In this document: piece by piece, positions 526 to 32,439 of the stretch
How positions within the stretch are numbered: the stretch's first letter is position 1
Layout of the letters: every line of letters starts with the position of its first letter
NCBI GenBank assembly: GCA_031272825.1
Contig: JAISTE010000104.1
Span: 1-32,439 of the forward strand
DNA length: 32,439 bases
DNA from: Propionibacteriaceae bacterium
GTDB taxonomy: Bacteria; Actinomycetota; Actinomycetes; Propionibacteriales; Propionibacteriaceae
Direction of reading: 5' to 3'
Program-made: the position numbers and the translations under genes
Notes under the pieces: generated by a model
Databases searched by the model: none
What the model was told of the DNA's origin: nothing
What the model saw: only the letters and a program-made list of their open reading frames with translations

Positions 526-2866
526 CGTCCTGCAGGGCTTTGTCTAAGTTGTTGAAGTAGTCGGAATATCCCGCTACCCGCACTATTAGGTCTGTGTATT
601 GGTCGGGGTGGGCTTGGGCGTCCAGCAGCGTGGCCCGGTCTACCACGTTGAACTGGAGATGGTGGCCGTCTAGAGCGAAATAGGTGCGGATTAGCGACGC
701 CACTGCTGAGATACCCCGATCGCCTGCGAATACCTGCGGGGTGAACTTTAGGTTCAGCAGGGCTCCGCCAGTCTTCAGTTGGTCCAGCTTGGCCGCCGAT
801 TTAATGACGGCCGTGGGCCCATTTCTATCGGCCCCCTTTTCGGGGGCGATGCCATCAGGCAGCGGGATGCCCTTGCGGCGGCCATTCGGCGAGGCCTCCA
901 TCACCTGCCCGAAGTACACGTGGCAGGTGGTGGGCAAGAACTCGACGATCGTCTTCGAACCCTTCGGAGTAGGACGCCCGGCGATGGCAGACTGCAGCGA
1001 ATCGGCTACCGAGCGCATGATCGAATCAGCGAAGTCGTCGTCGTTGCCGTACTTAGGGGTGTGGTTGAACACCAGATCGAATACCTCGTCGCGGCCGACG
1101 AAATCATCGGCCAGAGCATCCAGCAGCTCCCCAATCTCAAGCGAGCCGCCGAACACCTGCCGTGCGAAGACCGCCAAAGAATCCGTCACCGTCGCAATGC
1201 CGACGCACTGGATATAGGAGGTGTTGTACCTTGCCCCGCCGCAGTTGTAGTCAAGGGCCTTGGCGATGCAATCGTCGGTGATCACGGAAAGCAGCGGAAC
1301 CGGCAGGGTGTCCATGAATAGCCGCTCGATGAGATTATTTCCGGCAACCTTCACATCGGCCACATAGCGCAGCATCTTCTCGAAGGCCGCGTACAGCTCG
1401 GCGTAGGAGCCGAACTCGCGCGGATCACCGAAGTCGGGGGCGACGACCCTGCCCGTGTAATGGTCGTAGCCGCGGTTCAACACCAACTCCAGCACCTTCG
1501 GCACGTTGAAATAGCCGGTGAGCACATAGGCTTCCTTCCCCGCGACCCCGGTTTCCACACAGCCGGAGGCGATCCCGGACTCGCGGGCGTCGTCGAGGCT
1601 CTTGCCCATGTTCATAAGCTCAGCGATGATCGCCTCGGAGTTGTAGAACGCGGGCTGACCCCAGCCCTTTCGGGAGATTTCCAGGGCCCTGCGCAGGAAG
1701 TGTTCGGGGGATTTGCGGGAAATCTGTACGTTGGACGAGGGCTGCAGCAGGCGCATCTCGTCCATGACCTCCAAGATCAGGTAGGACAGGTCGGATACTC
1801 CAGTGGTTCCGTCGGGCCGCAGCGAGCCGGTGTTGATATTGCAAAAGTCGGTGTAGGTGGCCGATTCCTTCAACGTGATGCCCACCTTCGGCGGTGCGGG
1901 CTGGTTGTTGAATTTCACCCACAGGCATTCCAAGATTTCGCGGGCGTCATCCCTCGTCAAGGTGCCATCGGCCAGCCCAGAGACGTAGAACGGTTCCAGG
2001 TGCTGATCGAGCTTGCCGGGGGAGTAGGCATCCCAGTTGTTCATCTCCGAGGTGACGCCGATGTGCGTGAACCAGTACATCTGCACGGCCTCGCGGAAAT
2101 TGCGCGGGGCATGGGCGGGTACCTGTTCGCAAACGGCTGCGAGATCGTCCATCCCGCGCGAGCGCGCCAGGGCGGCGTAGCGCTCGCCCAACACGCACAT
2201 GCCCTCGCACACCAGCCTCATACCCTGCAGCTCGGCGATCTTGGCCGCGGCATCCATATCGCCCAAATACGAGATGGACGCCAAACGGGCGTCTATGTCT
2301 TCGATCAGCTCGGCGTACCCCCGCCGGTAGATTTTCCCGTCGGCGACGGTGTGCCCGGGGCCGCGCTGGGCCATGAACTCGGTGAAGAGCCCGGCCTCAA
2401 AAAGCAGGTGCCAGGATTCGGGGAGGGCGTCCATCATCTTGGACATCGAAGCGCGCTCAGCCCAGTAGGGGATGATGGTTTGGGCTTGGATGCGCTTGTC
2501 GTCCTCGGTTACCGAAAACGAAACCCGTTCCCGGGCGGCCATGTTCTCGAAGTCTTCGACGGTGTGGCAGCACAGCTCGGGGAATGTGGGTGCAGATTGG
2601 GGTGCGACGCCCTTTTCGCCGACGATCAGCTCGTCGTCGCCCAGGTACAAGGTTCTGCGGCTCATGAGCTCGTAGAAGAACTTTCCGCGCAGCACAGGGG
2701 CCGGTACTTTGCCCTCCCATTGCTTATAGACCTCGGTTTCGATGAGGGCTCGTTCTAGGGTGATAGAGGGACGGGCTGTTTCCGATTGCGCTCTGAGCCG
2801 CTGTGTGCGCGGTGTGGAGCCGCGCAAGTGCTCGGTTTTGACCGGTGCTTCCAACAACAGGCTCAT
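494..2866 (-). CDS. hypD: Glycyl radical enzyme, trans-4-hydroxy-L-proline dehydratase (HypD)-like
   Basis: This 790-residue protein belongs to the pyruvate formate-lyase/glycyl radical superfamily. The thiyl-radical loop SGCVETG places the catalytic Cys at 436 and the acid/base Glu at 438. The C-terminal glycyl radical motif RVAGYSDYF places the radical Gly at 766. CVETG followed by KEAYVLTGYFN, and the length, match the HypD group, which dehydrates trans-4-hydroxy-L-proline to pyrroline-5-carboxylate, rather than PFL (Cys-Cys) or the CVEP choline and glycerol lyases. From memory, C. difficile HypD uses C434, E436, G765 and pocket residues D278, S334, F340, Y450 and T645; this protein has D279, S335, F341, Y452 and T646/T647. 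A strong AGGAGG lies just upstream of the ATG. Such enzymes need a radical-SAM activase and are destroyed by oxygen. No activase and no proC is in the window. The family is certain; the substrate is a good guess. Confidence 0.85.
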   Translation of the reverse strand: MSLLLEAPVKTEHLRGSTPRTQRLRAQSETARPSITLERALIETEVYKQWEGKVPAPVLRGKFFYELMSRRTLYLGDDELIVGEKGVAPQSAPTFPELCCHTVEDFENMAARERVSFSVTEDDKRIQAQTIIPYWAERASMSKMMDALPESWHLLFEAGLFTEFMAQRGPGHTVADGKIYRRGYAELIEDIDARLASISYLGDMDAAAKIAELQGMRLVCEGMCVLGERYAALARSRGMDDLAAVCEQVPAHAPRNFREAVQMYWFTHIGVTSEMNNWDAYSPGKLDQHLEPFYVSGLADGTLTRDDAREILECLWVKFNNQPAPPKVGITLKESATYTDFCNINTGSLRPDGTTGVSDLSYLILEVMDEMRLLQPSSNVQISRKSPEHFLRRALEISRKGWGQPAFYNSEAIIAELMNMGKSLDDARESGIASGCVETGVAGKEAYVLTGYFNVPKVLELVLNRGYDHYTGRVVAPDFGDPREFGSYAELYAAFEKMLRYVADVKVAGNNLIERLFMDTLPVPLLSVITDDCIAKALDYNCGGARYNTSYIQCVGIATVTDSLAVFARQVFGGSLEIGELLDALADDFVGRDEVFDLVFNHTPKYGNDDDFADSIMRSVADSLQSAIAGRPTPKGSKTIVEFLPTTCHVYFGQVMEASPNGRRKGIPLPDGIAPEKGADRNGPTAVIKSAAKLDQLKTGGALLNLKFTPQVFAGDRGISAVASLIRTYFALDGHHLQFNVVDRATLLDAQAHPDQYTDLIVRVAGYSDYFNNLDKALQDEIIARTEQVL

Positions 2867-2954
2867 GGCGACCTCCTCGCAGGTTGCGGCGAAGTCTACC
2901 CGAGGGATGTTTCGGCGGCTTGCGTTGGTTATGGTGCGGGAGGAGATTGGGAGG

Positions 2955-3030
2955 AGATCCTGCGACTACGCGCAGGATGACGAGGGTGGGGATGTGCAGG
3001 ATGACGAGGGTGGGGATGTGCAAGATGACG
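2955..3030. repeat. Dispersed repeat: one hairpin arm plus 24-bp tandem units
   Basis: A 27-bp hairpin element at 2955-2981 (stem ATCCTGCG / CGCAGGAT around ACTACG) differs by one base from the element at 22269-22295. Its right half, gcaggatgacgag, then repeats at 2996 and 3020 with a 24-bp period, the last copy carrying a substitution (caagatgacg). The element lies upstream of the glycyl radical enzyme gene and just past the helicase terminator, in a 221-nt gap that otherwise holds only that gene's ribosome site. It belongs to the same family as 22147-22364 and 32357-32439. Confidence 0.85.
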
Positions 3031-3043
3031 AGCGGGGAACGAT

Positions 3044-3080
3044 ACAAAAGAGCCGCCCCAGGTTTCCCGGGGCGGCTCTT
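3044..3080 (-). terminator. Intrinsic terminator closing the seven-gene operon
   Basis: A 12-bp perfect stem, AAGAGCCGCCCC (3048-3059) with GGGGCGGCTCTT (3069-3080), has a 9-nt loop. On the minus strand the stem is followed by TTTTGT. It starts 7 nt beyond the stop codon of the DEAD-box helicase gene. No T run follows on the plus strand, so it acts in the minus direction. Confidence 0.9.
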
Positions 3081-3087
3081 CAAGCGT

Positions 3088-4551
3088 CTATTCAACGGGC
3101 TTGCCGTTGTGAAGCCTGCGGCGCGTGCGCTCCTTGCGGGGCTTGTGCTCGGCCTTGACCTCGGCGGGGCGATCCTCGTTTTGCCTTCTCGGGCGGCGAT
3201 CCCGGTCGCGGTCGCGGCCACGTTCGACTCCTTTGGAAGGCTTTCGATCGTCGCGATGTCCGCGGCCGCGCCCGGAGCGCTCTTCGCGCCGATCCTTGCC
3301 GCCCAGCGGGCGATCCGGATCAGGCTCGGTGAGCCAGCCGGGGGCGTCCTCGGGAATATCGAGGTCGGCCAAGAACTCCGGGGAGGTCGAGTAGATCTCT
3401 GCGGGTTCCTCGAAGCCGAGCTTGAGTACCCGGTTGATGACCTTCCAGCGGGTGAGGTCGCGCCAATCGACGAGCGTCACGGCAATGCCGGAGGCACCGG
3501 CCCGGCCCGTGCGGCCGATGCGGTGCACGTAGGTGAGTTCGTCGTCGGGGCATTCGTAGTTGACCACGTGAGTGACGTCGTCGATGTCCAGGCCGCGGGC
3601 CGCGACGTCCGTGGCCACCAAGATGTCGATCTTGCCTTCGCGGAATTTTTCCAGTGCGCGCTCGCGGGAGACCTGCGAGATGTCGCCGTGGATGGCCTTG
3701 GCGGCAAAACCGCGGGCCTTCAGCTCGTCCAGCAGCCGCTCGGCGGCGCGCTTGGTGTTCGTGAAGATGATCACGCGGCCGCGGTCGCGCGCCTGCAGCA
3801 GTTTGCCGACGAGGGCGGGCTTATCCAGGTCGTGGGCGCGGTAGACGAACTGCTTGGTATCGGGAACCGTAAGTTTGGCGTCCCCGGTTTCGGCGCGAAC
3901 GTTGATCGGTTGGTCGAGCTGCGAGCGGGCCAGGGAAACGATGGCCGAGGGCATGGTCGCCGAGAACAGCAGGGTCTGGCGGGACTTCGGGGTCTTGGAG
4001 ACGATCTTCTCCACATCGGGCAAAAACCCCATGTCGAGCATTTCGTCGGCCTCGTCCAGTACCAGCACCGATACCTCGGAAAGATCGAGGGAGCCGCGGT
4101 CGACCAGGTCGATGATGCGTCCCGGTGTGCCGACGACGACGTCAACGCCCTTCTCCAGAGCATTGAGCTGCGGCTCGTACCCAACTCCGCCGTAGACGGT
4201 CAGTACCCGGGTGGGCTTGAAGGTGGAGGCGACGGTGAGGTCGTCGGAAACCTGCGAGGCCAGCTCGCGGGTGGGCAGGAGCACCAGGGCCTGCGGTTTC
4301 TTGGATGGCGAGGGGAGCTTGATGTTTTGCAAAACGGCGACGCCGAACGCCAGCGTCTTGCCCGTTCCTGTGCGCGCCTGCCCGATCATGTCCTTACCCG
4401 ATAGCGCGATCGGGATCGCCAGTTCCTGGATCGGGAAGGGTTCGGTGATTCCCACCCCTCTGAGGGCCTTTACTATGGCCGGTTCGACGCCCAGTGTCGC
4501 AAATGTCTTCTTCTTTTCGGGCGTGCTTGTCTGATCTATCATTCTTCTCAT
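3088..4551 (-). CDS. DEAD-box ATP-dependent RNA helicase, RhlE/CsdA-like
   Basis: All DEAD-box motifs are present and intact: Q motif GITEPFPIQ, motif I ARTGTGKT, Ia PTRELA, Ib TPGR, II DEAD, III SAT, V ARGLD and VI HRIGRTGRAG. After the two RecA-like domains comes a tail of about 75 residues rich in Arg, Asp and Gly (RSGRGRGHRDD, GRDRDRDRRPRR), typical of RNA-binding extensions. The protein should unwind short RNA duplexes in ribosome assembly or mRNA turnover, often under cold or stress. The start is uncertain. I chose the ATG at 4549-4551 (487 residues). An in-frame TTG at 4567-4569 would add six residues, and a third choice is the ATG at 4540-4542; none has a good Shine-Dalgarno. It is the last gene of a seven-gene run, 62 nt after DUF3107, with a strong terminator behind it. 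Confidence 0.93.
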   Translation of the reverse strand: MRRMIDQTSTPEKKKTFATLGVEPAIVKALRGVGITEPFPIQELAIPIALSGKDMIGQARTGTGKTLAFGVAVLQNIKLPSPSKKPQALVLLPTRELASQVSDDLTVASTFKPTRVLTVYGGVGYEPQLNALEKGVDVVVGTPGRIIDLVDRGSLDLSEVSVLVLDEADEMLDMGFLPDVEKIVSKTPKSRQTLLFSATMPSAIVSLARSQLDQPINVRAETGDAKLTVPDTKQFVYRAHDLDKPALVGKLLQARDRGRVIIFTNTKRAAERLLDELKARGFAAKAIHGDISQVSRERALEKFREGKIDILVATDVAARGLDIDDVTHVVNYECPDDELTYVHRIGRTGRAGASGIAVTLVDWRDLTRWKVINRVLKLGFEEPAEIYSTSPEFLADLDIPEDAPGWLTEPDPDRPLGGKDRREERSGRGRGHRDDRKPSKGVERGRDRDRDRRPRRQNEDRPAEVKAEHKPRKERTRRRLHNGKPVE

Positions 4552-4554
4552 TTC

Positions 4555-4570
4555 GTTGGCGTGCGCCAAC
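4555..4570. promoter_or_regulatory. 16-bp palindrome at the helicase gene start
   Basis: GTTGGCG-tg-CGCCAAC is a perfect inverted repeat whose inner edge is 3 nt from the chosen ATG (4549-4551), exactly where a ribosome site should be. In RNA it would form a tight hairpin. It may hide the start until unwound, giving cold or self-regulation, or it may bind a protein in DNA. The symmetry is read directly; the role is inference. Confidence 0.45.
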
Positions 4571-4613
4571 CCACAACCTTACCGGCAACTACCGGCAGCG
4601 AAACAATCTAGGG

Positions 4614-4838
4614 CTAAAGGGTGCCGAACCCGACCTGCCGGGCGTGTTCGGTGTCGAAATCGAGATAGCCGACCGCCTTGGCGTTGATTAGAACAGTGCG
4701 CCCCTTCGTGTCGATCAGCTTGAAAACTCCGTCGGCTTCGAGCGCGGAGGCCAAGGACTTCTCCACTTCGGCCTGGGTCAGCTCGGTGTTCACCACGACC
4801 TCGCGGGGAACGTTTTGGACATATACCTTTACTTCCAT
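4614..4838 (-). CDS. DUF3107 family small protein
   Basis: This 74-residue protein begins MEVKVYVQNVPREVVVNT and contains an SLASALEADGVFKLIDTKGRT-like core ending in a short strand. It matches DUF3107, a small actinobacterial family of unknown function (M. tuberculosis Rv3208A/TB9.4, from memory). The pattern of strand, helix, strand suggests one small alpha/beta domain; there is no signal peptide or membrane segment. The ATG follows the FHA stop codon with no gap (TAG then ATG), so its translation is probably coupled. GAAGAAAG just upstream can serve as a weak ribosome site. The DEAD-box helicase follows 44-62 nt later, depending on that gene's start. The family assignment is firm; no biochemical role can be given. 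Confidence 0.88.
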   Translation of the reverse strand: MEVKVYVQNVPREVVVNTELTQAEVEKSLASALEADGVFKLIDTKGRTVLINAKAVGYLDFDTEHARQVGFGTL

Positions 4839-5276
4839 CTAACTTTCTTCTTCCATCTTCGCGAAGGTCGCGATCTCTTCATCGGTTGCCCGGCGTACGT
4901 AGATCTTCGTCCAAGCGCCGACGTACACCGCCTGGCCCTCGGAAAGCTCCACTTTGCCCGCAATGGGGAGCGCGGGCAGAGGGCCGGTGACATTGCCCAC
5001 GAACGTGCCGTTGGCGGAGCCGAGGTCTTCGACCCACCAGCGGGTGCCGTCGGTGCTGAGCTCGGCATGTTTGCGGGAGACGCCGGTGTCGAGCGAGCAC
5101 TCGATCTCCGGGTTGATTCCGCGCGAGGGCGACGAGCGCCCAATCAGGAACGTCTTCCCTTGCAAGGGGATGATGTCGGGAAGCCCGGGGGAGGGCATCT
5201 TCTCTTCGGAGCCTTGGGTGGCGTACCAGTCGGGATCCATCCAAACTTCCGCGACCCAGGCCAGAGGTTCACTCAT
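4839..5276 (-). CDS. FHA-domain phosphothreonine-binding protein
   Basis: This 145-residue cytosolic protein has one forkhead-associated domain: IGR at 45-47, SRKHAE at 67-72 and SANGTFV at 87-93. These residues bind phosphothreonine, so the protein should read marks made by a Ser/Thr kinase, most simply the PknG-like kinase two genes upstream. The N-terminal 40 residues (EVWMDPDWYAT, then SPGLPDIIPL) resemble FHA proteins found beside vWA genes in other actinobacteria, from memory. They lack the ETTS-type phosphorylation motif of GarA/OdhI. The start at 5274-5276 is set by AGGAG 5-6 nt upstream; an earlier in-frame start would add 18 residues without a ribosome site. It lies 25 nt after the vWA stop and touches DUF3107. 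Confidence 0.92.
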   Translation of the reverse strand: MSEPLAWVAEVWMDPDWYATQGSEEKMPSPGLPDIIPLQGKTFLIGRSSPSRGINPEIECSLDTGVSRKHAELSTDGTRWWVEDLGSANGTFVGNVTGPLPALPIAGKVELSEGQAVYVGAWTKIYVRRATDEEIATFAKMEEES

Positions 5277-5301
5277 GGTCTCTCCTTTCTGTGCCCATAG
5301 A

Positions 5302-6399
5302 TTACCCGCCCAACTTGGATGTGCCCGCATCCAGCTGCGTGTCGGCGGCGGGCTCGGTGCGTCCGGTATCGGCGTCGAGATTCAGCAACGACGTGGCCTC
5401 CTCGCGCGGCGCCTGAGGCAGCGTGAGCGGGGTGAGCGGCTCGGCCTGGCTCTCGGACGCCTGCCACTTGGCGATGACCCTGGCCGACGCCCGCGCCGAG
5501 CCTGCCTGCAAAAGCTCAAGGCGCGCTGCTAGCTGCTCCTTGCCCAGCGATCGGGGCGGAAGCCGGACGCCCAGGTGGTACTCCCTTTCCTCGTCCGACC
5601 AGTCAGCCGAAGGCAGCAGCGCGAACTGGCCGTCGAAGGAGGGGTGGAACTCTTCCAGATCGGGGGCGACGCGGCGCAGGTACAGCAGTTGGGCGTCCTT
5701 GGGAAGCCACAGGCGCAGCTGCACCTGGCGGTCGACGGCGTCGGTTTGCTGGTGCAGCAGCAGATCGAGCAAGGGGCCGAGCTGGTCTTGCGGCGGCATG
5801 ACGACGACCTTGCCGCCCAGCGAGCCTGCGATTTGTTCGAGCTCGGGGTGGGGTTGCTCGTCCAAGACCAAGACGTCGCAGCTGAACTGGCCCTTACACG
5901 AGTCGATGGCGGCGGTGAGCTGGGAGGGCAGCTCGTTGCGGTTGCCGCCGTCGGTGATGATGGTCAGGTGCCGGGGTTCTGGTACGGACGCAGATTGGAA
6001 CAGCAGCGCGGCAAGCTTGAGCCAGGTGCCGAACGCGGTGCCGCCGTCGGGCACGAGCCTGCGCAGGGCCTCCTTGGCCCGCGCGCGGGTGGCCGAATCG
6101 ATGAGATCCATACCCGAGCCGGTCGTCACCTCCGGGTAGGCGAGGTAGGCACGGTGGGTACCGGCGATGAGGGCGAAGGGGGTGCCGTCGGCCAGCCGCT
6201 GCAAGATGGCAAGCGCGGTAGCCCGGGCGGTGTTGAGCTTCTTCCCCATGGATCCGGAGGTATCGACGGCGATGATCTCGCCCGCTGCACCCCTCGCCAC
6301 CCCCTGGGAACGACGGGCGAACGAAACAATCGCATTCACATCGGTCGCGCCGACGGGCAGGAATTCGTTTTGGTAGACCTTGGCCTCGTACTCAGCCAT
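5302..6399 (-). CDS. von Willebrand factor A (vWA) domain protein
   Basis: The 365-residue protein has an N-terminal beta region (EAKVYQNEFLPVGATDV), then a vWA domain with a complete metal-ion site: DTSGS at 46-50, T121 in PDGGTAFGT, and D150 in IITDGG. Past about residue 230 it is a beta-rich region of unknown fold (VQLRLWLPKDAQLLYLRRV) and a low-complexity tail rich in Thr, Ala and Glu. It has no signal peptide or membrane segment, so it is likely cytosolic. vWA domains with an intact MIDAS bind protein partners through Mg2+, and here they would assemble the kinase, FHA and TelA proteins; this is inference. Its ATG overlaps the kinase stop by 8 nt (ATGGCTGA), and AAGGA precedes it. Confidence 0.9.
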   Translation of the reverse strand: MAEYEAKVYQNEFLPVGATDVNAIVSFARRSQGVARGAAGEIIAVDTSGSMGKKLNTARATALAILQRLADGTPFALIAGTHRAYLAYPEVTTGSGMDLIDSATRARAKEALRRLVPDGGTAFGTWLKLAALLFQSASVPEPRHLTIITDGGNRNELPSQLTAAIDSCKGQFSCDVLVLDEQPHPELEQIAGSLGGKVVVMPPQDQLGPLLDLLLHQQTDAVDRQVQLRLWLPKDAQLLYLRRVAPDLEEFHPSFDGQFALLPSADWSDEEREYHLGVRLPPRSLGKEQLAARLELLQAGSARASARVIAKWQASESQAEPLTPLTLPQAPREEATSLLNLDADTGRTEPAADTQLDAGTSKLGG

Positions 6400-8920
6400 T
6401 GGATTTTCCTTTCAAGAACTGGCGCTCCCAGCGTTTGGCGGTCTGATAGGCCGAGGACGACGGGGATATGGATTCGAGGGCAGCAGCCGACCCGTCCTTG
6501 TCGCCCAGGGCGAGCCGAACCCTGGCCAGGCCGAATGCGGACTGTGTGCCGTAGGCGGCGTCGGTGGCCAGGCAGATTTGGTAGAGCGATTCCGACAAGG
6601 CAAGCTGCCCGGATAGCTCGCAGGTGAGAGCAAGGGCGAGCTTGGGGGCGAGCTCGCCGGGGAGCACGCCGTAGACGGTGTTGAACGACTGCCTGGCCGC
6701 GCGGTACTGGCCCGATTGCAGCATCGCGATGCCTTTGAGCCACATCAACTGCCACTGCCAGGGGTCAGAGGGCAGCGACTGGTCGACCCGCTCGGCGGCC
6801 TTGGCCCAATCGAAGCGGCGCAGCCAGGCCAGGGCGTCGTCGTAGTCGGGGCTGGGGGAAACCAGCGGCAGGGGCAGCTGCTCCCAGTCGGCCCCGGCAC
6901 CCGAGCCGATCGGGGCAGTGAACAGGTGCGAGGAGCGGGTCTCCTTCGCCGGATCGGGGCTGGCGGCCAGCTCGCGCAGCACCAAGGAGAGCTGCACCTC
7001 CAGCTCGGCGACCGATTGGAAACGATCCCTGGGATCGGCGGCGAGCGTGCGCTCCAGCAGGCGAATCAAGGAGTCATGCCCCGCGAGCTCGGCGGGCGGC
7101 TGGGCTGGGTCGAAGCCCGAGGTTCCGGCGATGAGGGCGAGCAGCGTGCGCCCGACCGAGTAGACGTCGGAGGCGACGGATGGCCCATCGCTCGCCAGCT
7201 CGGGGGCCGCATAGCCGACGGTCCCGTAGATCGCCCGGTCGGTATCACCCAGCTCACGCACCGAGCCGAGGTCGATCAACATGACCTTGTTGGGCGTCGC
7301 CACGATGTTTCCGGGCTTGAAATCCAGGTAAAGCAACCCCAGCGAGTGCAGGTAGTCGAGCCCGGGCAGCACCGCCAACACCAGGGCGACGGCCTGGGCC
7401 GCGGTGAACGTACCGGATTTGAGCAGCTGGGCGAGCGAGCGTCCGGGCACAAACTCGGTAACCAGGTACTCGTCCGAACCGTACTCGACGACGTTATAGA
7501 TCTCGACGATCAGCGGGTGAGAGCCGAGCCGGGCCAGCATCCGGCGCTCGCGTGCGGCCAGCTCGCGCTGCTCGGGATCGTCGGGGTGAAGCATCCCTTT
7601 TAGAACGACGTCACGGCCCACCCGCTCGTCGCGGGCCAGGTATACCCAGCCCTGGCCGCCAAAGGCGATCGGCCCAAGCACACGATACTGCCCGGCAACC
7701 AGGGTTCCGGGTTCGATGGCGCGAGCCGAAACCTGCTTGTCGGCGGGGGGAGTGGGGTCGGAGAGCAGGAGCTCCTCGGGCTGAACCGGGGCAATCGGCA
7801 GCAGAGAGCGGCTCAGGCGCGTGATAACCGTGTCCTGCAAGGCCTCCGAAGGCCTGGGCCGCTGGTAATCCTGGGCGAGCGCCGAGCCGAACGGCAGGGT
7901 ACCGATGAGGGTGGAAAGGCCGGTACCGGATTCGCTTGAGGTCGCGGCGGGTTCCAGTCCGGATTTGCGGCCGCAGACGTTGCAATAGCCGTCGACAATC
8001 CAACCTTCGCAGCCCGCGTGCGAGCAGGGTTCACGCTCGGAGGCATCGTCTTTGTCGGATTCGGCGCCTCGGATCTCAAGGCCGCATACCGGGCAGACCG
8101 AACCGGTGTACGCGTGGCCGCACTCGGCGGGCTGAGGTGATGATGGGAGTTGATCCAAGGCCTTCACGCCGCAGACCTCGCAGTAGCCGTCGACGATCCG
8201 GCCGCCGCACCCGGGTTCCTGGCAGCGGCCCCCGGTGCCGGGCTGTGCGGGTTGCTCGAAGAAGACGGAGGTGTTTTGGCTGGTAGCGCCGACCACGATG
8301 AGGTCGCGCTCAGCCTTGGCCATGTCGTACTCGAGGGCGGAGAGCTCGCCGCCGACATCGGCCCCGCGCACGGCCTTTTCCTCCAGCGCGTCCAAGCGAG
8401 AGGCCAGCGCCGAAACCTGCCGCGACGGGATTCCTAGCAAGGTGGGCTGGGCGGCCACCTGCTCGCGCGCCCGCTCGACGGCCGCACGCAAGGCCGCCAG
8501 GCGCCTTCTAGTTGTCCCGTCCTCGGCGGCTAACCCCAAGCGCGAGACCATCTGGGAGTGCAGCATCATCACCAGGCGCCCGGCCTCGGCCAGGGTAAAG
8601 CTCTGGCCCTGCATCCCCTCGACCCGGCCCCAAACCTCGCGGCCGAACTGGGCGAGTTCACGCGCTCCTGCCCGGCCCGAATCCCACGTGGTTTTGAGGG
8701 CGTCCAACCGCTCTTTCACCGCTTGCCACAGGCTCATCGCAAGCTTTAAGTCGTCGATGAACTCGGGCGTCCTGCCGGTTGCGTAGACGGCGGCATCGAG
8801 TTCGTCGAGATCATCCTTGGCGACGCTCACCCACTCGGAGAGGGCGGTCAAGAACTCCAGCGCCTCCTGCGAGTTGGGTGCCACCTGGTAGGAACCCGGT
8901 GCCTGCGGGAAACTTCTCAT
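6392..8920 (-). CDS. PknG-like serine/threonine protein kinase with zinc-knuckle and TPR regions
   Basis: This is an 842-residue multidomain protein. Residues 1-225 are helical with no motif I recognise. Residues 233-316 carry three Cys clusters: C233/C238/C247/C250, C267/C276/C279 and C299/C304/C313/C316; the first and third share an IVDGYC-x-VCG repeat. The kinase domain is about 410-650: glycine loop FGGQGWVYLA, VVLK with the ATP-binding Lys at about 441, catalytic YLDFKPGN (Asp533, Lys535, Asn538), DLG for DFG at 550-552, and APE. VLKGMLHPDD, LPGLDYLHSLGLLYLDFKP and DVYSVGRTL closely match PknG. The C-terminal 150 residues are helical TPR-like, as in PknG. The start is set by GGAGGAG before the ATG. 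The gene overlaps the XpaC-like gene by 4 nt (ATGA) and the vWA gene by 8 nt. M. tuberculosis PknG sits beside glnH; this context differs. Confidence 0.92.
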   Translation of the reverse strand: MRSFPQAPGSYQVAPNSQEALEFLTALSEWVSVAKDDLDELDAAVYATGRTPEFIDDLKLAMSLWQAVKERLDALKTTWDSGRAGARELAQFGREVWGRVEGMQGQSFTLAEAGRLVMMLHSQMVSRLGLAAEDGTTRRRLAALRAAVERAREQVAAQPTLLGIPSRQVSALASRLDALEEKAVRGADVGGELSALEYDMAKAERDLIVVGATSQNTSVFFEQPAQPGTGGRCQEPGCGGRIVDGYCEVCGVKALDQLPSSPQPAECGHAYTGSVCPVCGLEIRGAESDKDDASEREPCSHAGCEGWIVDGYCNVCGRKSGLEPAATSSESGTGLSTLIGTLPFGSALAQDYQRPRPSEALQDTVITRLSRSLLPIAPVQPEELLLSDPTPPADKQVSARAIEPGTLVAGQYRVLGPIAFGGQGWVYLARDERVGRDVVLKGMLHPDDPEQRELAARERRMLARLGSHPLIVEIYNVVEYGSDEYLVTEFVPGRSLAQLLKSGTFTAAQAVALVLAVLPGLDYLHSLGLLYLDFKPGNIVATPNKVMLIDLGSVRELGDTDRAIYGTVGYAAPELASDGPSVASDVYSVGRTLLALIAGTSGFDPAQPPAELAGHDSLIRLLERTLAADPRDRFQSVAELEVQLSLVLRELAASPDPAKETRSSHLFTAPIGSGAGADWEQLPLPLVSPSPDYDDALAWLRRFDWAKAAERVDQSLPSDPWQWQLMWLKGIAMLQSGQYRAARQSFNTVYGVLPGELAPKLALALTCELSGQLALSESLYQICLATDAAYGTQSAFGLARVRLALGDKDGSAAALESISPSSSAYQTAKRWERQFLKGKSNG

Positions 8921-9402
8921 GGCTCCTCCGTTCTGAACTTCTCTTGCAGGAATGCCCCGTTGACGTACAGTGCCTGGGCGTCGCGGGCGCTGACCGCATC
9001 CAGCAGGTTGCGGGTGGTGGCGTCCAACAGATCCAGCTGCTCCACCAACAGCATCAGCGAGGTTTTCATTCCCGCCACCGGGCGGGTATCGGCCCACTGC
9101 CGGGGCAGCCGCAGATACGAACGCAGCGCCTCGGGCAGGTAGTCGGTGGCCGTCGCCATCGCCGCATAGGCGTCGTAGCTTCCCAGCCCCAGGTTTTCCA
9201 AACGCGGAAGGATCAGCCGCAGCGTGCCGGTGATCTTGCGCACCCTCGCCTTCACCGGGGTGGGGACGTCGGGGCGTTTCATCGTCTCTTCGATCTTGTC
9301 CAGCTGCCCTTGCAATTGCTCGGCAGTGGGGGCAGGTGTCACGACAGGCTCAACCGGCTCAGGCTCCTCGGTGCCCGTTCCCAACCAGTCGAACAGCCCC
9401 AT
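8917..9402 (-). CDS. XpaC-like helical protein, TelA partner
   Basis: This 161-residue protein has no signal peptide. It starts MGLFDWLGTG, continues with a Glu/Pro/Thr-rich linker to about residue 25, and is then almost wholly alpha-helical. The segment DYLPEALRSYLRLP, followed by LLVEQLDLLDATTRNLL and an end ALYVNGAFLQEKF, resembles the C-terminal part of XpaC-type proteins, which often neighbour telA. That resemblance is from memory and the match is partial, so I class it as XpaC-like only. It overlaps the telA stop codon by one base (TAATG) and the kinase start by four (ATGA). Such coupling suggests that TelA, this protein and the kinase are made in fixed proportions, perhaps as a complex. 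No catalytic residues are evident. Confidence 0.6.
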   Translation of the reverse strand: MGLFDWLGTGTEEPEPVEPVVTPAPTAEQLQGQLDKIEETMKRPDVPTPVKARVRKITGTLRLILPRLENLGLGSYDAYAAMATATDYLPEALRSYLRLPRQWADTRPVAGMKTSLMLLVEQLDLLDATTRNLLDAVSARDAQALYVNGAFLQEKFRTEEP

Positions 9403-10616
9403 TAGTCGATGGTCAGCTCAGGGAGATCCTTGCGCTGATCCTGGGCGCGCACGCGATCCAGATAGCTGCGGGACTTCATGACCTCGCCTTCGAGCACCTG
9501 CACGGTCTGGCTCATCGAATCGAGGGCCTTGGCCTTGAACTCGTCGATGGAATCCATCGTGGCATAGATGTTCTCGAACGCCTTTTGCAGCTGCTGCATC
9601 CCGATCGTCGAGGACGCGGCTTGCTCTTGGATGGACGCCGAGTTGGTGCGCAGCGCCTGCGAGGTGGACTCGATGATCTGGCTGGTGGTGGTGTTCAGGG
9701 CCGTCACCTGGTCGAGCACCAGCTTTTGATTGCCGACGGCCTGGGCCACGATCACCGCGGTGCGCAAGGCCGAGACGGTGGTGGTGGAGGCCCGATCCAC
9801 GCCCTTGATGAGCTCGACATTGTTCTTGATGATGACGTCGAGCGAAAGATAGGACTGGATGGATACGGCCAGCTGGGTGAGCAGATCCTGGTGCTTTTGC
9901 CGCACGTAGAACAGCACGTCCTGGGAGACGGCCTTGGCCTTCTCCGGGTCGGTTTGCTCCAGCTTCTTCACCTCAAGCTCAAGCTTGGAATCGAGCTGCT
10001 CGGCGATGTAGACGTACTGGTTGAGCCGGGCCATGATGTCCCACAGGTTCTTCTTCTCCAGGTTCAGGGAGGTGTTGTCCTTCTTCAGCTCGTCTTGGCC
10101 GGAGCGCAGCGAATGCAAGATGGCGTTGAGGTGGGACTGCGAGGATTGGTAGCGGCGGAAGTAATCCACTGACTTGCCGGTGGAGAACAAGCCGAGGAAC
10201 TTCTTCTCCTTGCCGCGCGCCCCCGCCGGGTCGAGCGTTTCGACTTCTCTTCTAAGGGCGAGCAACGAGTTGGCGATGTCGGAGCCCTCGGCCACGGCAC
10301 CGTCCTTGATGGCCTTGACCGGGGTTTCCAGCAGACGGTTGGAGGTTTCGGCGGCCTTGCGGATGTCGATGTCGCCCATCGAACGCGCGGCGTCGGCCTG
10401 TTTGGAAAGCTCTGGCGAGCCGGTCTCGGCTGTGGTCACCAAGTGGATGAACTCGTCGACTTTCTTGTCCAGCTCCGGCACCTTCTCCACGTCGATCTTG
10501 GGCGCCATCTTCGGGGCCTGGGTGAGCGCCACCTCCTTGGTGGGGGCGGGCGGCTCCAAATTCAAGACGTCCTCGGGCGGGGTCAGGGCATCGGATTCTT
10601 CGTTCGCAGCGGTCAT
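9402..10616 (-). CDS. telA: TelA family protein (toxic anion/tellurite resistance family)
   Basis: The 404-residue protein has an acidic Pro-rich start (to about residue 40) and then a long helical body: RKAAETSNRLLETPVKAIKD, FRRYQSSQSHLNAILHSLR, LNQYVYIAEQLDSKLE, and IIKNNVELIKGVDRASTTTV. This is the layout of the TelA family (toxic anion resistance), long coiled-coil cytosolic proteins. TelA was named for tellurite resistance on plasmids. The chromosomal members are usually tied to stress-response modules and their biochemical action is not settled. It is the first gene of the minus-strand operon. The ATG has AAAGG about 7 nt upstream. The promoter must lie in 10617-10805, shared with the divergent adnA, where I see no convincing -35/-10 pair. 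The family is well supported; tellurite resistance itself should not be assumed. Confidence 0.9.
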   Translation of the reverse strand: MTAANEESDALTPPEDVLNLEPPAPTKEVALTQAPKMAPKIDVEKVPELDKKVDEFIHLVTTAETGSPELSKQADAARSMGDIDIRKAAETSNRLLETPVKAIKDGAVAEGSDIANSLLALRREVETLDPAGARGKEKKFLGLFSTGKSVDYFRRYQSSQSHLNAILHSLRSGQDELKKDNTSLNLEKKNLWDIMARLNQYVYIAEQLDSKLELEVKKLEQTDPEKAKAVSQDVLFYVRQKHQDLLTQLAVSIQSYLSLDVIIKNNVELIKGVDRASTTTVSALRTAVIVAQAVGNQKLVLDQVTALNTTTSQIIESTSQALRTNSASIQEQAASSTIGMQQLQKAFENIYATMDSIDEFKAKALDSMSQTVQVLEGEVMKSRSYLDRVRAQDQRKDLPELTID

Positions 10617-10805
10617 GTCGGGCCTTTCGTAGTTGGTTCAACACTCTACTTCGTACCCGGTCGAACGTGTAGGCAAAACTCCCGGGATTATCCCTGATTC
10701 CAGCCTGATAAGCGGGTTCGGGGTTGCTCTGGGGCGTGAGTTTTCTCGGGTGTCGGCGATTGTCGCCTTCGGTTGACCGAATCCGAAATTGTTAGAAGCA
10801 GGTGA
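10617..10805. promoter_or_regulatory. Divergent intergenic region between telA and adnA
   Basis: These 189 nt must hold the promoters of the leftward telA operon and the rightward adnAB-nudC genes. On the plus strand TTGACC at 10773-10778 is a good -35 element, but no clean -10 follows at 16-18 nt. The minus strand shows AAAGG before telA and no convincing hexamer pair. A TCGAAC at 10660-10665 matches half of the actinobacterial LexA site, but the second half is absent. Confidence 0.35.
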
Positions 10806-13805
10806 TTGGATAGGGACGTGGATTTGAGTAGTTGGAACTGCCCGGTGTTGGCCGTCGGCGGGCCGGGCACGGGTAAGACTCGCCTCGTGCAAGATGCGGC
10901 GCTCGCGGCGCTGGAAAGCGGCGAGTGCCTGGTGCTTGCGCGCACCCGCAAGGAGGCCTCCAGGATGCGCAACCGAATCGTGCGCGCGCTTCCTTCGAGC
11001 GTTTGGACTCCCAGAGTGACGACGGCCAACGCGTTCGCCTGGTCGATCTTCTCTCGCTTCAACCCCGGCATCCGGCTGCTCGACGCTCCGGAGCAGGAAT
11101 ACCAATTGCGCGAGCTGCTCTCTGGCTCGAAGGAGTTGTGGCCGCAGTTTCTGGCGCCCGCACTGGGGACGCGCACATTCGCCTCCCGAGTTCGCGGGGC
11201 GCTGCAGCGAGTGCGGCAGCTGGGCCTCGACCCAGTGGACGTGCGGCGCTTCGGCGCCGAGGCGGGCAAGCCCGAGTGGGAGGCACTGGGAGCGTTCTTC
11301 GAGGTGTACCTGGACGTCCTGGAGGGCGAACAGGCAGTTGACTACGCCGAATGCACACACCGGGCCCGCCTGGCGCTTGCCGAACCCGAGAAGGCGGCCC
11401 AGCTCTTAGGCAAATACCAGGCGATAGTGGTCGACGATTTCACCGATCTGGATCCTTCCCAGATCGGGCTCTTGTCCGATGCGCTGCCGGCGTCCCGGCG
11501 TTTGTTGGCAACTGGAGATCCAAACACCAACGTCTACGGGTTCCGCGGCGCACACCCCAGGGCGGCCGAGCGATTCGCCGAGTTCTTCGGCGGTACCGTC
11601 ATAGAGCTCAAATCCGGGTACAGGCAAGGGCCGGTGCTGGCAAAGGCACTGGCCGGGGTGCGCTCCCGTCTTCCGCTTCCTTTGATCGACGGCCAGGCGC
11701 GGGTTCTCGATCCTGTTCCGGCTTGTGGCGGGCTAGCCGATGCCGCCCAGGTGCGCCTGACCGCCACACCCGCCGAGGAGGCGCGTTTCGTGGCTCAGCA
11801 GGTAGCGGCCCAGCACGCCAAGGGCCGCGCCTATAAGGACATGGCCGTGCTGCTGCGCTCGCCGGGCAGGCAACTTGGCGAGTACGAGCGGGCGCTGGCC
11901 GCCGAGGGCATCGAGGTCAGCAAGTTCTCAGCGGACATCGCACTCGCCCAGGCTCCCGCAGTCCAGCCGCTGCTGCTGGCGCTGCGGGCCGTGCTTTCGC
12001 CTGCAGGCAAGGCAAAGGCGCTGCTGGTCTCACCGATCGGGGGTCTGGATCCGCTGGATCTGCGGGTGCTGCAAAGGGAGGCCCGCTCCCTGGGAATGGC
12101 GCTTGGGCCGCAGTTGTTCGATCAGCTGCTGGCCGAACCAGGTGTGCTGCGCGGCGTTGACCGACCGCAGGCCAAGGCAGCGGTCGAGTTGTCCGAGCAT
12201 CTGCAGGCTGCGCGCGGCAAGCTGGAATCCGGGGCCACCCCCGCGGAGATCGCCTGGGAGTTTTGGAACGGTACCGCGTGGAGCAAGCGGCTGATCGAGG
12301 CGGCGAAGGGCAACGACGAAAATGCCCGGCTCGCCGATAGGGATCTGGACGCCCTGGTGGAGTTCTTCGCTTTCGCCGCCGAGGTCAACACGGTCGGTGA
12401 GGCCGGGGTGAAGCAACTGCTCGGTGAGGTTCAGGCCCAACAATTACCCGCCGACACGGCCCGTGAGGATCGCGTCGTCAACCCCGGGGTAACCCTGTGC
12501 TCGGTGTTCCAAGCTAAGGGATCGCAGTGGGATTTCGTCGCCATCCCTGGGGTGCAGGAAGGCTCATGGCCGCGGCTGCGCGGCGGGGCCGGAATGCTGG
12601 ATCCCGAATGGCTGACACTTGACGGCGTCGTCCAGCCGGACATGCGCCGGCAGATTCTTGCCACCGACCGCAAATTGTTTTACCTGGCCTGCGGCACGGC
12701 GAAAGAAGAGCTGCTTGTCACCGCAGCGAAGGAGGCCGAGGGGCAGCCCTCTCGCTTCCTAACCGAACTCGGGGTTCCGGTCTTAGACGCGCAGGACTTA
12801 GACGTACCGCGATCGCTTGCCCAGCTCACCTCGTCCTTACGCAAGAAGTCCGCACTTGGGAACACCTGGGCCGAGCGCGAGGGCGCGGCGGCGAACCTGC
12901 GTTGGCTGTCCAAGCAGCAAATCGACGGTGAACCAGCCGCCCCCAAGGCCGATCCTTACCAGTGGTGGTTGTACCGAACGAATACCGATCAGCTTGAGGA
13001 TTCTCAGCGCACGGTGTTCAGGATTAGCCCTAGCCAGGTGAGCACGCTGCTGTCCTGCCCGAGGCGTTACTTTCTGGCAATCGAGGCGCGGGCCGAGCAG
13101 CCCTCCGCCAGCGCACAGGTCGGAACCGCGGTTCACAAGGTGGTCGAAGAGCTGCAGCGTGGAAGCCTGGACGTCGAGTCGGCGAGGGTACGCCTGGAAG
13201 AGATATTCGCCGGACTCGTCTTCGGTTCCGAGCTAGAGGCGGTGAGCGAGCTTGAGCGTGCGGTGCGCATGGTGCAGGCGGCCGACCGCTGGCTGCGTCA
13301 GCGCAGGGATGAACTCGTGGGGGCCGAGGTTGACTTCGACCTGGACGTAGAGGTCGAAGGTGTGAAGCTGCTCCTGCACGGCAGGATCGACAGGCTGGAA
13401 CGAGTGGGAGATCAGTTGTTGGCCGTCGATTTCAAGACGGGGCAGGAGATCACCAAGGATCAGGCCGCGGCGCTGGATCAGGTGGGCATCTACCAGTTGG
13501 CCATTGAGCGCGGGCTGGAGGGCGTCGCCAAGGCCCGATCCGCTGGCGGGCTGCTCGTATACCTGAAGAAGGAGACGGCAGCCGGGCTGCCTACGGAGCG
13601 AGAGCAGCAGTCGCTGGACATCTCGCCGCACCTGATACCGCCCGAACCCGGCGAAGACCAATACGAAAACTGGATAACGCATCATCTGGCTCTCGCGGCC
13701 CGGGAACTGATCGCGGGCGATTTTCCGGCCAAACGCAACCCCGGCTGCGGCCACTGCCAGTTCTCAGACAGTTGCCCAATACAAGGAAGGCAGGTGCTCG
13801 CATGA
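10806..13805 (+). CDS. adnA: AdnA-like helicase-nuclease subunit (UvrD-like motor fused to Fe-S RecB-like nuclease)
   Basis: AdnA pairs with AdnB to resect double-strand breaks in actinobacteria. The 999-residue frame opens with Walker A GGPGTGKTR at 18-26. Motif III is GDPNTNVYGFRGA and motif V QAKGSQWDF. The Walker B is DDFTD at 210-214, with Asp where UvrD has the catalytic Glu. Motif VI reads YLACGTAKEEL near residue 625, with Thr in place of the arginine finger. So the motor looks weakened, in keeping with AdnB being the main motor in mycobacteria. The C-terminal nuclease has GTAVHK, GRIDRLE and AVDFKTG (about 874), and an Fe-S set: SCPRRY near 750 plus CGHCQFSDSC at the end. The start is unsure: TTG at 10806 or GTG at 10818 (AGGG just before). 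It overlaps adnB by 4 nt (ATGA). Confidence 0.9.
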   Translation: MDRDVDLSSWNCPVLAVGGPGTGKTRLVQDAALAALESGECLVLARTRKEASRMRNRIVRALPSSVWTPRVTTANAFAWSIFSRFNPGIRLLDAPEQEYQLRELLSGSKELWPQFLAPALGTRTFASRVRGALQRVRQLGLDPVDVRRFGAEAGKPEWEALGAFFEVYLDVLEGEQAVDYAECTHRARLALAEPEKAAQLLGKYQAIVVDDFTDLDPSQIGLLSDALPASRRLLATGDPNTNVYGFRGAHPRAAERFAEFFGGTVIELKSGYRQGPVLAKALAGVRSRLPLPLIDGQARVLDPVPACGGLADAAQVRLTATPAEEARFVAQQVAAQHAKGRAYKDMAVLLRSPGRQLGEYERALAAEGIEVSKFSADIALAQAPAVQPLLLALRAVLSPAGKAKALLVSPIGGLDPLDLRVLQREARSLGMALGPQLFDQLLAEPGVLRGVDRPQAKAAVELSEHLQAARGKLESGATPAEIAWEFWNGTAWSKRLIEAAKGNDENARLADRDLDALVEFFAFAAEVNTVGEAGVKQLLGEVQAQQLPADTAREDRVVNPGVTLCSVFQAKGSQWDFVAIPGVQEGSWPRLRGGAGMLDPEWLTLDGVVQPDMRRQILATDRKLFYLACGTAKEELLVTAAKEAEGQPSRFLTELGVPVLDAQDLDVPRSLAQLTSSLRKKSALGNTWAEREGAAANLRWLSKQQIDGEPAAPKADPYQWWLYRTNTDQLEDSQRTVFRISPSQVSTLLSCPRRYFLAIEARAEQPSASAQVGTAVHKVVEELQRGSLDVESARVRLEEIFAGLVFGSELEAVSELERAVRMVQAADRWLRQRRDELVGAEVDFDLDVEVEGVKLLLHGRIDRLERVGDQLLAVDFKTGQEITKDQAAALDQVGIYQLAIERGLEGVAKARSAGGLLVYLKKETAAGLPTEREQQSLDISPHLIPPEPGEDQYENWITHHLALAARELIAGDFPAKRNPGCGHCQFSDSCPIQGRQVLA

Positions 13806-17726: not shown

Positions 17727-17750
17727 TGGGTGCGCCGTTAGCACGTCTCG

Positions 17751-17832
17751 TACACGAGAAGGGACTTGAACCCTCACGCCTTGCGGCACAGGAACCTAAA
17801 TCCTGCGTGTCTACCAATTCCACCACTCGTGC
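17751..17832 (-). tRNA. tRNA-Leu (anticodon UAG)
   Basis: The 82-nt minus-strand sequence folds as a class II tRNA. The acceptor stem GCACGAG pairs with CTCGTGT (first pair G-U), the anticodon stem CAGGA/TCCTG encloses TTTAGGT with anticodon UAG (plus-strand 17796-17798), there is a variable arm GCC-GCAA-GGC, and a T arm GAGGG-TTCAAGT-CCCTT. The discriminator base is A, as expected for Leu. The 3' CCA is not encoded. It lies 21 nt downstream of dinB on the same strand and may be processed from that transcript. Confidence 0.95.
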
Positions 17833-22146: not shown

Positions 22147-22364
22147 ATCATCCTGCGCTTCCCCCACCCGTCATCCTGCGTTTCCCCCACCCGTCATCCT
22201 GCGCTTCCCCCACCCGTCATCCTGCGCGAAGTCGCAGGATCTAACGCAAGCCAAGAACCCAGGTGGGGAGATCCTGCGACTTCGCGCAGGATGACGAAGA
22301 AGCTAGGCGCAGGATGACGAAGAAGCTAGGCACAGAATGCCGAAGAAGCTAGGCGCAGAATGAC
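22147..22364. repeat. Mirrored repeat array: 23-bp units on both sides of a 27-bp inverted pair
   Basis: On the left, four units with core GTCATCCTGCG start at 22147 (first base changed), 22170, 22193 and 22216, exactly 23 bp apart, with a C-rich filler (cttcccccaccc). The fourth runs into a 27-bp hairpin element, 22216-22242. Its exact reverse complement lies at 22269-22295, 26 nt away. To the right, the reverse core CGCAGGATGAC recurs at 22285, 22308, 22331 and 22354, again 23 bp apart, with a different filler (gaagaagctagg) and growing decay. The array fills most of the 328-nt gap between glgB and thyA. The only other content of the gap is the thyA ribosome site and 56 nt before glgB in which I see nothing. 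Confidence 0.9.
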
Positions 22365-22420
22365 GAGATGACTGCGCCCAGGATGGCAAGTGTGGGTAAG
22401 ACTGGACGACGAACGCCCGG

Positions 22421-24334: not shown

Positions 24335-24402
24335 CTGAACTCCCTATCTCTTTTATCCTTATCTAACCCTTTTCGGGTACGGGATGTAAACCCTGGGAAG
24401 GG

Positions 24403-26436: not shown

Positions 26437-26443
26437 GTTCTCC

Positions 26444-32356: not shown

Positions 32357-32439
32357 GTCATCCTGCGTTTCCCACCCTCGTCATCCTGCGTTTCCCACCC
32401 CCGTCATCCTGCGTTTCCCACCCCCGTCATCCTGCGTTT
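32357..32439. repeat. 23-bp tandem repeat array, cut by window edge
   Basis: Core GTCATCCTGCG starts at 32357, 32380, 32403 and 32426, exactly 23 bp apart, with filler tttcccaccc. It is the same orientation and period as the left half of the array at 22147-22242. The array continues past the window, where a hairpin element may follow. Confidence 0.9.

Follow-up and report, generated by a model that had tools for sequence, protein, structure and literature searches.

The 32,439-nucleotide (nt) stretch examined here, hereafter the window (positions 1 to 32,439 of the forward strand of contig JAISTE010000104.1, Propionibacteriaceae bacterium, assembly GCA_031272825.1), forms contig 21 in a draft genome of 2.57 Mb labelled G000. 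Its minus strand carries a run of seven genes (Table 1), encoding a TelA-family protein, a small 'XpaC-like' protein, a PknG-type kinase fused to a coiled coil, a vWA protein, an FHA protein, a DUF3107 protein and a DEAD-box RNA helicase. The first five of these genes probably descend from a larger, ten-gene operon found in relatives, and it is this operon and its reduction that are described below.

The locus and its fused kinase gene

A first-pass annotation of this DNA had described seven closely joined genes ending at one strong terminator. Its coordinates and junctions were rechecked and hold: the TelA and XpaC-like genes overlap by 1 nt, the XpaC-like and kinase genes by 4 nt, and the kinase and vWA genes by 8 nt; 25 nt separate vWA from FHA, and FHA and DUF3107 meet at a junction of 0 nt. 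Tight joining applies to these five junctions but not to the uncounted intergenic region between DUF3107 and the helicase, and because this measures 62 or 71 nt (start codon ATG at 4551 or 4542; 44 nt with a TTG at 4569) the helicase is less tightly joined than the other genes. The terminator fold (-32.7 kcal/mol) was equalled in stability by 0 of 200 shuffled sequences; a simple terminator scan did not list it. No match to the sigma-70 consensus was found in 2850-10900 (chance expectation, 0.9). Since most of the gene order recurs in dozens of genomes, it is beyond what chance would give.

Table 1. Features of the minus-strand locus (window coordinates)
Feature	Position	Strand	Basis
telA (TelA, toxic anion resistance, helical protein, 404 aa)	9402..10616	-	PF05816, 8.2e-87
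XpaC-like small helical protein, 161 aa	8917..9402	-	Position after TelA; no Pfam match
Fused coiled coil-PknG-type kinase gene, 842 aa, ATG 8920	6392..8920	-	PF00069, 6e-34; partial PF16918
Fused coiled-coil domain of the kinase gene	8213..8920	-	Separate gene in non-reduced relatives
vWA protein, 365 aa	5302..6399	-	VWA_3, 6.7e-10
FHA protein, 145 aa	4839..5276	-	PF00498, 2.2e-11
DUF3107 gene	4614..4838	-	PF11305, 2.5e-22
DEAD-box RNA helicase	3088..4551	-	PF00270, 6e-52
Intrinsic terminator after helicase	about 3045..3085	-	Fold z -6.3
Divergent intergenic region telA / adnA-like gene, 189 nt	10617..10805	.	Gene coordinates

The kinase gene encodes a coiled coil (amino acids (aa) 1 to about 210), zinc-ribbon cysteine clusters (about aa 233-316), a PknG-type kinase domain (about aa 405-652) and a shortened TPR region (aa 702-829), with no rubredoxin domain. 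Its best PDB match is PknG (2pzi, 6e-80), with PknB far behind (8e-22); three of the top five matches are named PknG and two just 'Serine/threonine protein kinases'. Together with the active-site columns K441, D533, N538 and D550, which are invariant across 54 kinases (a set that excludes seven sequences truncated or divided owing to contig ends or frame breaks: L125, L132, L162, L173, L178, L182 and L183), the 2pzi match identifies a PknG-type catalytic domain, as the first-pass annotation had proposed. The rubredoxin domain (PF16919) is present in 52 of the 54 kinases, the exceptions being those of the window and of L106, a contig of genome G016; in the alignment the rubredoxin segment of the window kinase is a deletion, and the zinc-ribbon clusters remain. 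A TPR match is found in 53 of the 54. Among the reduced kinases, the PF16918 match is partial in the window (5.5e-31, profile positions 107-232 of 340) and absent in G016, and in G013 the reading frame stops soon after the kinase domain.

The coiled-coil domain is 31-39% identical to 25 other sequences, among which is the fused copy of G016, with 23 invariant columns; its AlphaFold2 model is mostly helical (predicted local distance difference test, pLDDT, 87) and has no PDB structure match at E 0.001 or better. A search of 30 genomes of the genus found that the coiled coil and the kinase share a single frame in three, G000, G016 and G013, the last being the third fused gene and newly found by this search. 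In 20 other genomes the two matches lie apart, in different frames of the same contig (19 genomes) or on different contigs (G012), and seven further genomes gave no coiled-coil match at the search threshold used. An assembly error was considered as the origin of the fusion and rejected, since the fusion is in frame in three separate genomes. The G016 gene consists of coiled coil and kinase only (454 aa); G013 has the order XpaC-like, coiled coil-ribbons-kinase, vWA, FHA, DUF3107, helicase, with the contig stopping inside the XpaC-like gene. The fusion suggests that the coiled-coil protein may bind PknG in species where the two genes are separate.

The window TelA scores 291.8 bits against PF05816 (curated cut-off 30) and is 65-74% identical to five aligned relatives. 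The family occurs in 31 of 41 genomes (the window's and those of relatives) and, over cut-off, in just 17 of 296 genomes sampled from the phylum, including the window's own. The name 'XpaC-like' reflects a loose resemblance: the gene is indeed a conserved small helical one that follows TelA, but membership of the XpaC family PF10112 was rejected, as none of 22 members of its own family matches that model. Profile comparison with PF10112 (hhalign) gave a probability of 7.9%, yet the YLP region lines up. The AlphaFold2 model of the protein is helical (pLDDT 80.6), and no PDB structure matched it at E 0.001 or better. The XpaC-TelA gene pair is known from Bacillus and Listeria; the window resembles it in having TelA beside a helical protein, and PF10112 XpaC adjoins TelA in L055 and L069, from other classes of the phylum, but the window's own protein is not PF10112.

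The vWA protein of the window keeps the MIDAS motif DTSGS, and the FHA protein keeps its SRKH and NGT motifs; both sets of motifs are also kept, with slightly different wording, in G016 and G013. The strict MIDAS pattern is not matched in L106, L143, L147, L155, L169 and L182 (the L106/G016 protein, the sole one inspected, reads DGSVS), and the FHA pattern is unmatched in L143 and L169. The C-terminal VWA_3_C domain of the vWA protein of a relative, L036, was not found in the window vWA, and the N-terminal zinc ribbons of relatives' FHA proteins are absent (CxxC count 0 in the window and L106 vs 3 in all six other closed frames).

The ten-gene operon of relatives and its reduction

Using the window TelA as query, we examined the best 80 of 203 TelA relatives as named loci. 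The full operon, telA-xpaC-AAA-glnX-glnH-coiled coil-pknG-PP2C-vWA-FHA, is present in two other families of the order (f2 and f3), in which a lipoprotein gene, encoding a family 3 solute-binding domain, comes after the membrane-protein gene and FHA closes the string. Relatives within the genus, where the available stretch suffices and with the exception of G016, carry telA, the XpaC-like gene, an AAA ATPase, the membrane protein, the coiled-coil gene, a kinase with rubredoxin and TPR, PP2C, vWA and FHA. The names GlnX-like for the membrane protein and GlnH-like for the lipoprotein rest on their matches to the two genes adjoining PknG in Mycobacteriaceae-like loci (tblastn E values as low as 2e-30 and 2e-63, respectively; the label 'Mycobacteriaceae-like', like 'Streptomyces-like' below, is a guess, with gene content among its grounds). 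Named Nocardioidaceae and Intrasporangiaceae loci show the larger operon to the extent that they reach, many named loci stopping short of FHA; in a fourth family (G039) TelA is 42% identical and the operon genes do not lie beside it. The five-gene order that the first-pass annotation had proposed to look for across actinobacterial genomes (TelA, XpaC-like, kinase, vWA, FHA) is thus contained in one conserved gene string.

This string is remarkably constant in most components. The XpaC-like gene lies directly 3' of TelA in 79 of the 80 named loci; in the remaining one, L135, the contig stops at this point. Among 70 loci that extend 1.5 kb or more downstream, AAA was found in 68, the other two being L106 and L140 (the latter with only 2.2 kb in view). 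It is found in 59 of the 60 in which the kinase is in view, and PP2C in 53 of the 54 that extend 8.5 kb or more downstream, L106 being the exception in both cases. A hidden Markov model (HMM) of GlnX, rebuilt once from its own first matches, detected the gene in 62 of 63 loci with both AAA and the coiled coil in view, leaving only L123 without it; absences suggested by tblastn in several loci were rejected as divergence, the HMM having found GlnX there. GlnH is more patchy (30 of the 63 loci: Propionibacteriaceae 0/18, Nocardioidaceae 21/28, Intrasporangiaceae 4/4, others 5/13), and genome-wide matches to it in the genus never exceed 123 bits, vs 380-612 for the operon copies of f2 and f3. At the GlnX position of L123 (Md513_bin121, 3152-3763), in an otherwise ordinary operon, lies a gene for a 204-residue 'headless' GlnX which, on visual inspection, retains the membrane-like segments and the shared C-terminal end and is missing the long stretches between; the L123 kinase retains its rubredoxin cysteines and C-terminal TPR region.

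The kinase module is layered: GlnX-GlnH-PknG stands alone in four Mycobacteriaceae-like loci (L102-L105); PP2C-vWA-FHA is added, with TelA not adjoining, in six Streptomyces-like loci (L092-L097) and in L098, whose two sensor genes are on the opposite strand; and the third layer joins this module to TelA-XpaC-AAA in the order of the window. Weak coiled-coil matches (1e-4 to 2e-6) occur near PknG in L093, L095 and L098. Two Streptomyces-like loci, L100 and L101, contain a second, more distant PknG-like kinase adjoining a vWA gene. In L057 a TelA 60% identical to that of the window lies beside an operon-like AAA ATPase, no other operon genes being found in a 20-kb stretch, and TelA-AAA may on this basis be a unit of its own.

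In the window, by comparison, the operon has lost AAA, glnX, glnH and PP2C, the rubredoxin domain is deleted, the TPR region is shortened and the coiled coil is fused to the kinase. Two more genomes, G016 and G013, have this layout to the extent that their contigs reach. Genome-wide searches for the lost genes covered G000, G016 and a third genome, G006. GlnX was found in none of the three, vs all eight comparison genomes; the best GlnH match in G000 reaches 87 bits (vs 380-612 for the operon copies of f2 and f3); AAA was found in neither G016 nor G006 (operon copies elsewhere, 515-969 bits), and PP2C matches in the three genomes reach at most 73.5 bits (operon copies, 309-618), those of G000 being just a 60-bit match at C25 and a 19-bit ribbon match. 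The AAA match of G000 is a 209-bit paralogue on contig 142 (L193), with a different N-terminus and comparable to the paralogues of G025; this ATPase is related to that of the operon and possibly belongs to another system. The first-pass annotation had mentioned a link of PknG to glutamine sensing as something known from elsewhere; in fact the GlnX and GlnH genes belonged to the ancestral form of this same operon and were lost here.

The three reduced kinases form one clade (Shimodaira-Hasegawa-like approximate likelihood ratio test, SH-aLRT, 99), on a stem of 0.95, within a Propionibacteriaceae-type group (91) of an outgroup-rooted tree, and the window, L106 and L107 form a clade (100) in a midpoint-rooted TelA tree; their short gene order in common argues for a single origin of the reduced layout. 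Because the tips of the reduced kinases are far longer relative to the median (0.88-1.46 vs 0.061) than those of TelA (0.30 for the window and 0.18 for L106, vs 0.059), the kinase evolved fast in this clade, and faster than TelA; the tree program warned that long branches may join falsely.

Such acceleration, together with the successive losses of GlnH, GlnX, AAA, PP2C, rubredoxin, TPR and zinc ribbons, is what would be expected if the locus were a decaying relic, an operon lost stepwise and without function in this clade. The nearest named bins, moreover, carry the isolate prefix Md513 (L106 and L107, as do L123, L118 and L127), and PMC12483993 links Md513_bin60 with a termite gut, that of Mastotermes darwiniensis, a setting in which regulation might readily be lost. 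However, L118 and L127 keep AAA and GlnX, the reading frames are intact wherever they are seen in the three genomes, and the catalytic, MIDAS and FHA motifs are kept, including the kinase lysine and aspartates in G013. Nonsynonymous (dN) and synonymous (dS) divergence between the window and G016, estimated by a simple counting method, was 0.21 and 1.04 for TelA, 0.40 and 0.84 for the XpaC-like gene, 0.53 and 1.13 for the kinase, 0.58 and 1.13 for vWA, and 0.31 and 0.85 for FHA, so that dN/dS of all five is about 0.2-0.5, below 1. We consider a relic improbable.

A candidate cytosolic complex and its alternatives

With moderate confidence, we read the locus as a streamlined descendant of the ten-gene operon, encoding a putative cytosolic complex of TelA, XpaC-like, coiled-coil-kinase, vWA and FHA proteins that has been disconnected from amino-acid sensing. 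Complex formation, substrates, loss of amino-acid control and physiological role are what we infer, along the following lines. In the full relatives, GlnH, a periplasmic lipoprotein, and GlnX, which lies in the membrane, would signal the presence of external amino acids to the kinase through its TPR region, PP2C would reverse phosphorylation, the FHA protein would read phosphothreonine, and the TelA, XpaC-like, AAA and vWA proteins would act as a responding scaffold. In the window's clade, where the input arm (GlnH, GlnX), the control points provided by AAA, PP2C and rubredoxin, and all or part of the TPR region have been lost and the coiled-coil partner is covalently joined to the kinase, the latter would be a cytosolic enzyme tethered by its coiled-coil domain to the TelA and XpaC-like proteins. 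Its output would then be set by expression and assembly, not by amino acids, and the FHA and vWA proteins could dock onto phosphorylated kinase, TelA or each other; an OdhI-like FHA protein whose gene lies elsewhere may still be a target.

The input arm of this scheme follows a proposal made for Mycobacterium and Corynebacterium, in which, according to PMC6069109 and PMC8546545, GlnH senses amino acids (aspartate, glutamate), GlnX relays the signal across the membrane and the TPR region of PknG receives it; the latter source names only Corynebacterium PknG as lacking rubredoxin within Actinobacteria. The locus resembles this PknG-GlnX-GlnH module in that its kinase domain is closest to PknG, that relatives have the GlnX-GlnH-PknG genes and that a partial PknG_TPR domain is kept. 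It differs from it in having no rubredoxin domain, no C-terminal part of the TPR region, and no glnX with glnH in either the operon or the genome, and in that its kinase is fused to a coiled coil and sits with TelA, XpaC-like, vWA and FHA genes. The loss of GlnX together with decay of the TPR region, while L123 with its short GlnX keeps the TPR, agrees with the published docking of TPR onto GlnX. Searches of the literature on TelA, XpaC, PknG, FHA, rubredoxin and GlnX found no description of a TelA-PknG operon; a 2012 paper on Ter systems might mention parts of it, and a survey of kinase architectures mentions the pknG-glnH link.

Several points weigh against the reading of a streamlined, sensor-less complex. 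The co-loss of GlnX and TPR is one evolutionary event, not a statistical test, and the combined loss likewise counts as a single event because the reduced genomes belong to one clade. The three reduced genomes are drafts. G013 is 71% complete, has no TelA match and ends its contig in the XpaC-like gene, and in G006 (66% complete) the telA contig is cut after the XpaC-like gene. G019, which is 85% complete and shows an ordinary operon up to the point in the kinase where its contig stops, likewise gives only a weak PP2C match, so that one PP2C absence in a draft proves little. The long tips of the reduced kinases could also mean partial decay, and in the midpoint-rooted TelA tree the clade stands beside all others and is not nested in Propionibacteriaceae.

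It is also conceivable, although somewhat unlikely, that the kinase performs ordinary PknG metabolic control, adjusting 2-oxoglutarate dehydrogenase by phosphorylation of an OdhI/GarA-like FHA protein, with input by another route and the TelA genes as passengers. OdhI-like FHA proteins of the genus (L186, which is contig 158 of G000, L187-L190 and L192) carry a zinc ribbon at the N-terminus and a motif of the form [DE]TT (GETTK in G000, GDTTS in G016), which recalls the OdhI/GarA phosphorylation site, and the C-terminal domain of 2-oxoglutarate dehydrogenase (PF16870) is encoded in both G000 and G016. The OdhI-like match in G000, however, scores 125 bits where the curated cut-off is 200, and the matches in all 11 searched genomes likewise fall short of it; such a protein could also be served by other kinases. 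Passengers, moreover, need not be retained, whereas the XpaC-like gene is kept in all three reduced operons and TelA in the two whose contigs reach it. The classical OdhI-like output may nevertheless persist in the reduced clade.

The first-pass annotation had, by analogy with Ter/TelA-type modules, made the helicase, DUF3107 and AdnAB parts of a stress complex acting through the RNA helicase beside AdnAB repair. TelA is present, a Listeria homologue alters nisin and tellurite susceptibility according to PMC12791056, and the kinase, PP2C and vWA genes that adjoin in relatives recall the TerY-P triad, which PMC11090510 describes as a TerY-like vWA protein, PP2C and a kinase with a C-terminal zinc ribbon. 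In relatives a zinc-ribbon kinase, PP2C and vWA do lie side by side, but the kinase is PknG-like, with TPR and N-terminal ribbons, and the window operon has no PP2C.

The proposed additional parts, furthermore, are probably old neighbours and not members of the system, because they adjoin each other elsewhere without the operon. In the Mycobacteriaceae-like L196, genes for a DEAD helicase, DUF3107 and AdnA/AdnB-like proteins lie inside 14 kb, and L197 has AdnAB-like genes, helicase and DUF3107 (the last by HMM), no operon gene being found in the 20-kb stretch of either. DUF3107 and helicase are close together in L198-L200, L203 and L204 and about 7.5 kb apart in L202, and L201 has DUF3107 and AdnA. 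The operon in turn occurs away from them: DUF3107 is far from TelA in all four f2/f3 genomes examined (G025, G028, G029, G032). AdnA lies upstream of TelA in 17 of 21 Propionibacteriaceae loci with at least 4 kb upstream, in 6 of 27 from Nocardioidaceae (Micropruina, Propionicimonas, Propionicicella) and in 0 of 7 from Intrasporangiaceae. In the window, the divergent gene at 10806 has UvrD-helicase and PD-(D/E)XK nuclease domains, which fits the name AdnA, though no library match carries it. We conclude from these distributions that the Propionibacteriaceae operon sits inside an older AdnAB/DUF3107/helicase neighbourhood. A stress complex with these parts is very unlikely, and the earlier interpretation as a whole is partly supported.

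The same kinase/PP2C/vWA make-up of relatives could point to an anti-phage defence module of the TerY-P kind, and the kinase matches PADLOC kinase models such as PD-T4-6. These matches, however, fall on a domain common to many kinases; the window proteins give PADLOC matches for kinase and helicase only, and relatives for kinase, AAA and PP2C (the last only to the candidate PDC-M21C and a generic PP2C model), with none for TelA, the XpaC-like, vWA or FHA proteins or the coiled coil. Conserved position and family-wise trees, in addition, suggest a core-genome operon, not a mobile one, and a defence role is extremely unlikely.

Elsewhere in the window, four short tandem arrays with 23-24-nt units (2972-3032, 22148-22227, 22284-22366 and 32357-32439), at least three of which share TCATCCTGC-like words on either strand, possibly form one dispersed repeat family. 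A trans-4-hydroxy-L-proline dehydratase (glycyl radical enzyme, NF043068 over cut-off) is encoded at 494-2866, and in G016 a 79% identical dehydratase gene also follows the helicase. Alpha-glucan genes, including those for a GlgE-like maltosyltransferase and two alpha-amylase/CBM_48 proteins, occupy 22421-28543, and a tRNA-Leu gene lies at 17750-17832.

Implications for the PknG family

PknG has been studied extensively, and its TPR region is proposed to make up a single control chain with GlnX and GlnH, the rubredoxin domain adding another level of control. A sensor-less, fused variant of this kind would be a natural experiment on the control of the PknG kinase family. It would add an evolutionary line of support for coupling between TPR and GlnX, the chain having been cut at GlnX, TPR and rubredoxin having decayed, and the rest of the operon having survived. 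A wider proposition, which we put forward as doubtful, is that sensing amino acids is not the primary role of PknG in much of Actinobacteria, and that the kinase instead acts as catalytic subunit in a cytosolic TelA/XpaC-like/coiled-coil/vWA/FHA machine, with GlnX and GlnH as detachable additions; the window's clade would then present the bare machine, with the coiled coil as constitutive partner and TelA as effector. The coiled-coil protein, fused to the kinase in three genomes, is a new candidate partner of PknG, and the poorly understood TelA gains a specific kinase as a candidate with which it may be tested.

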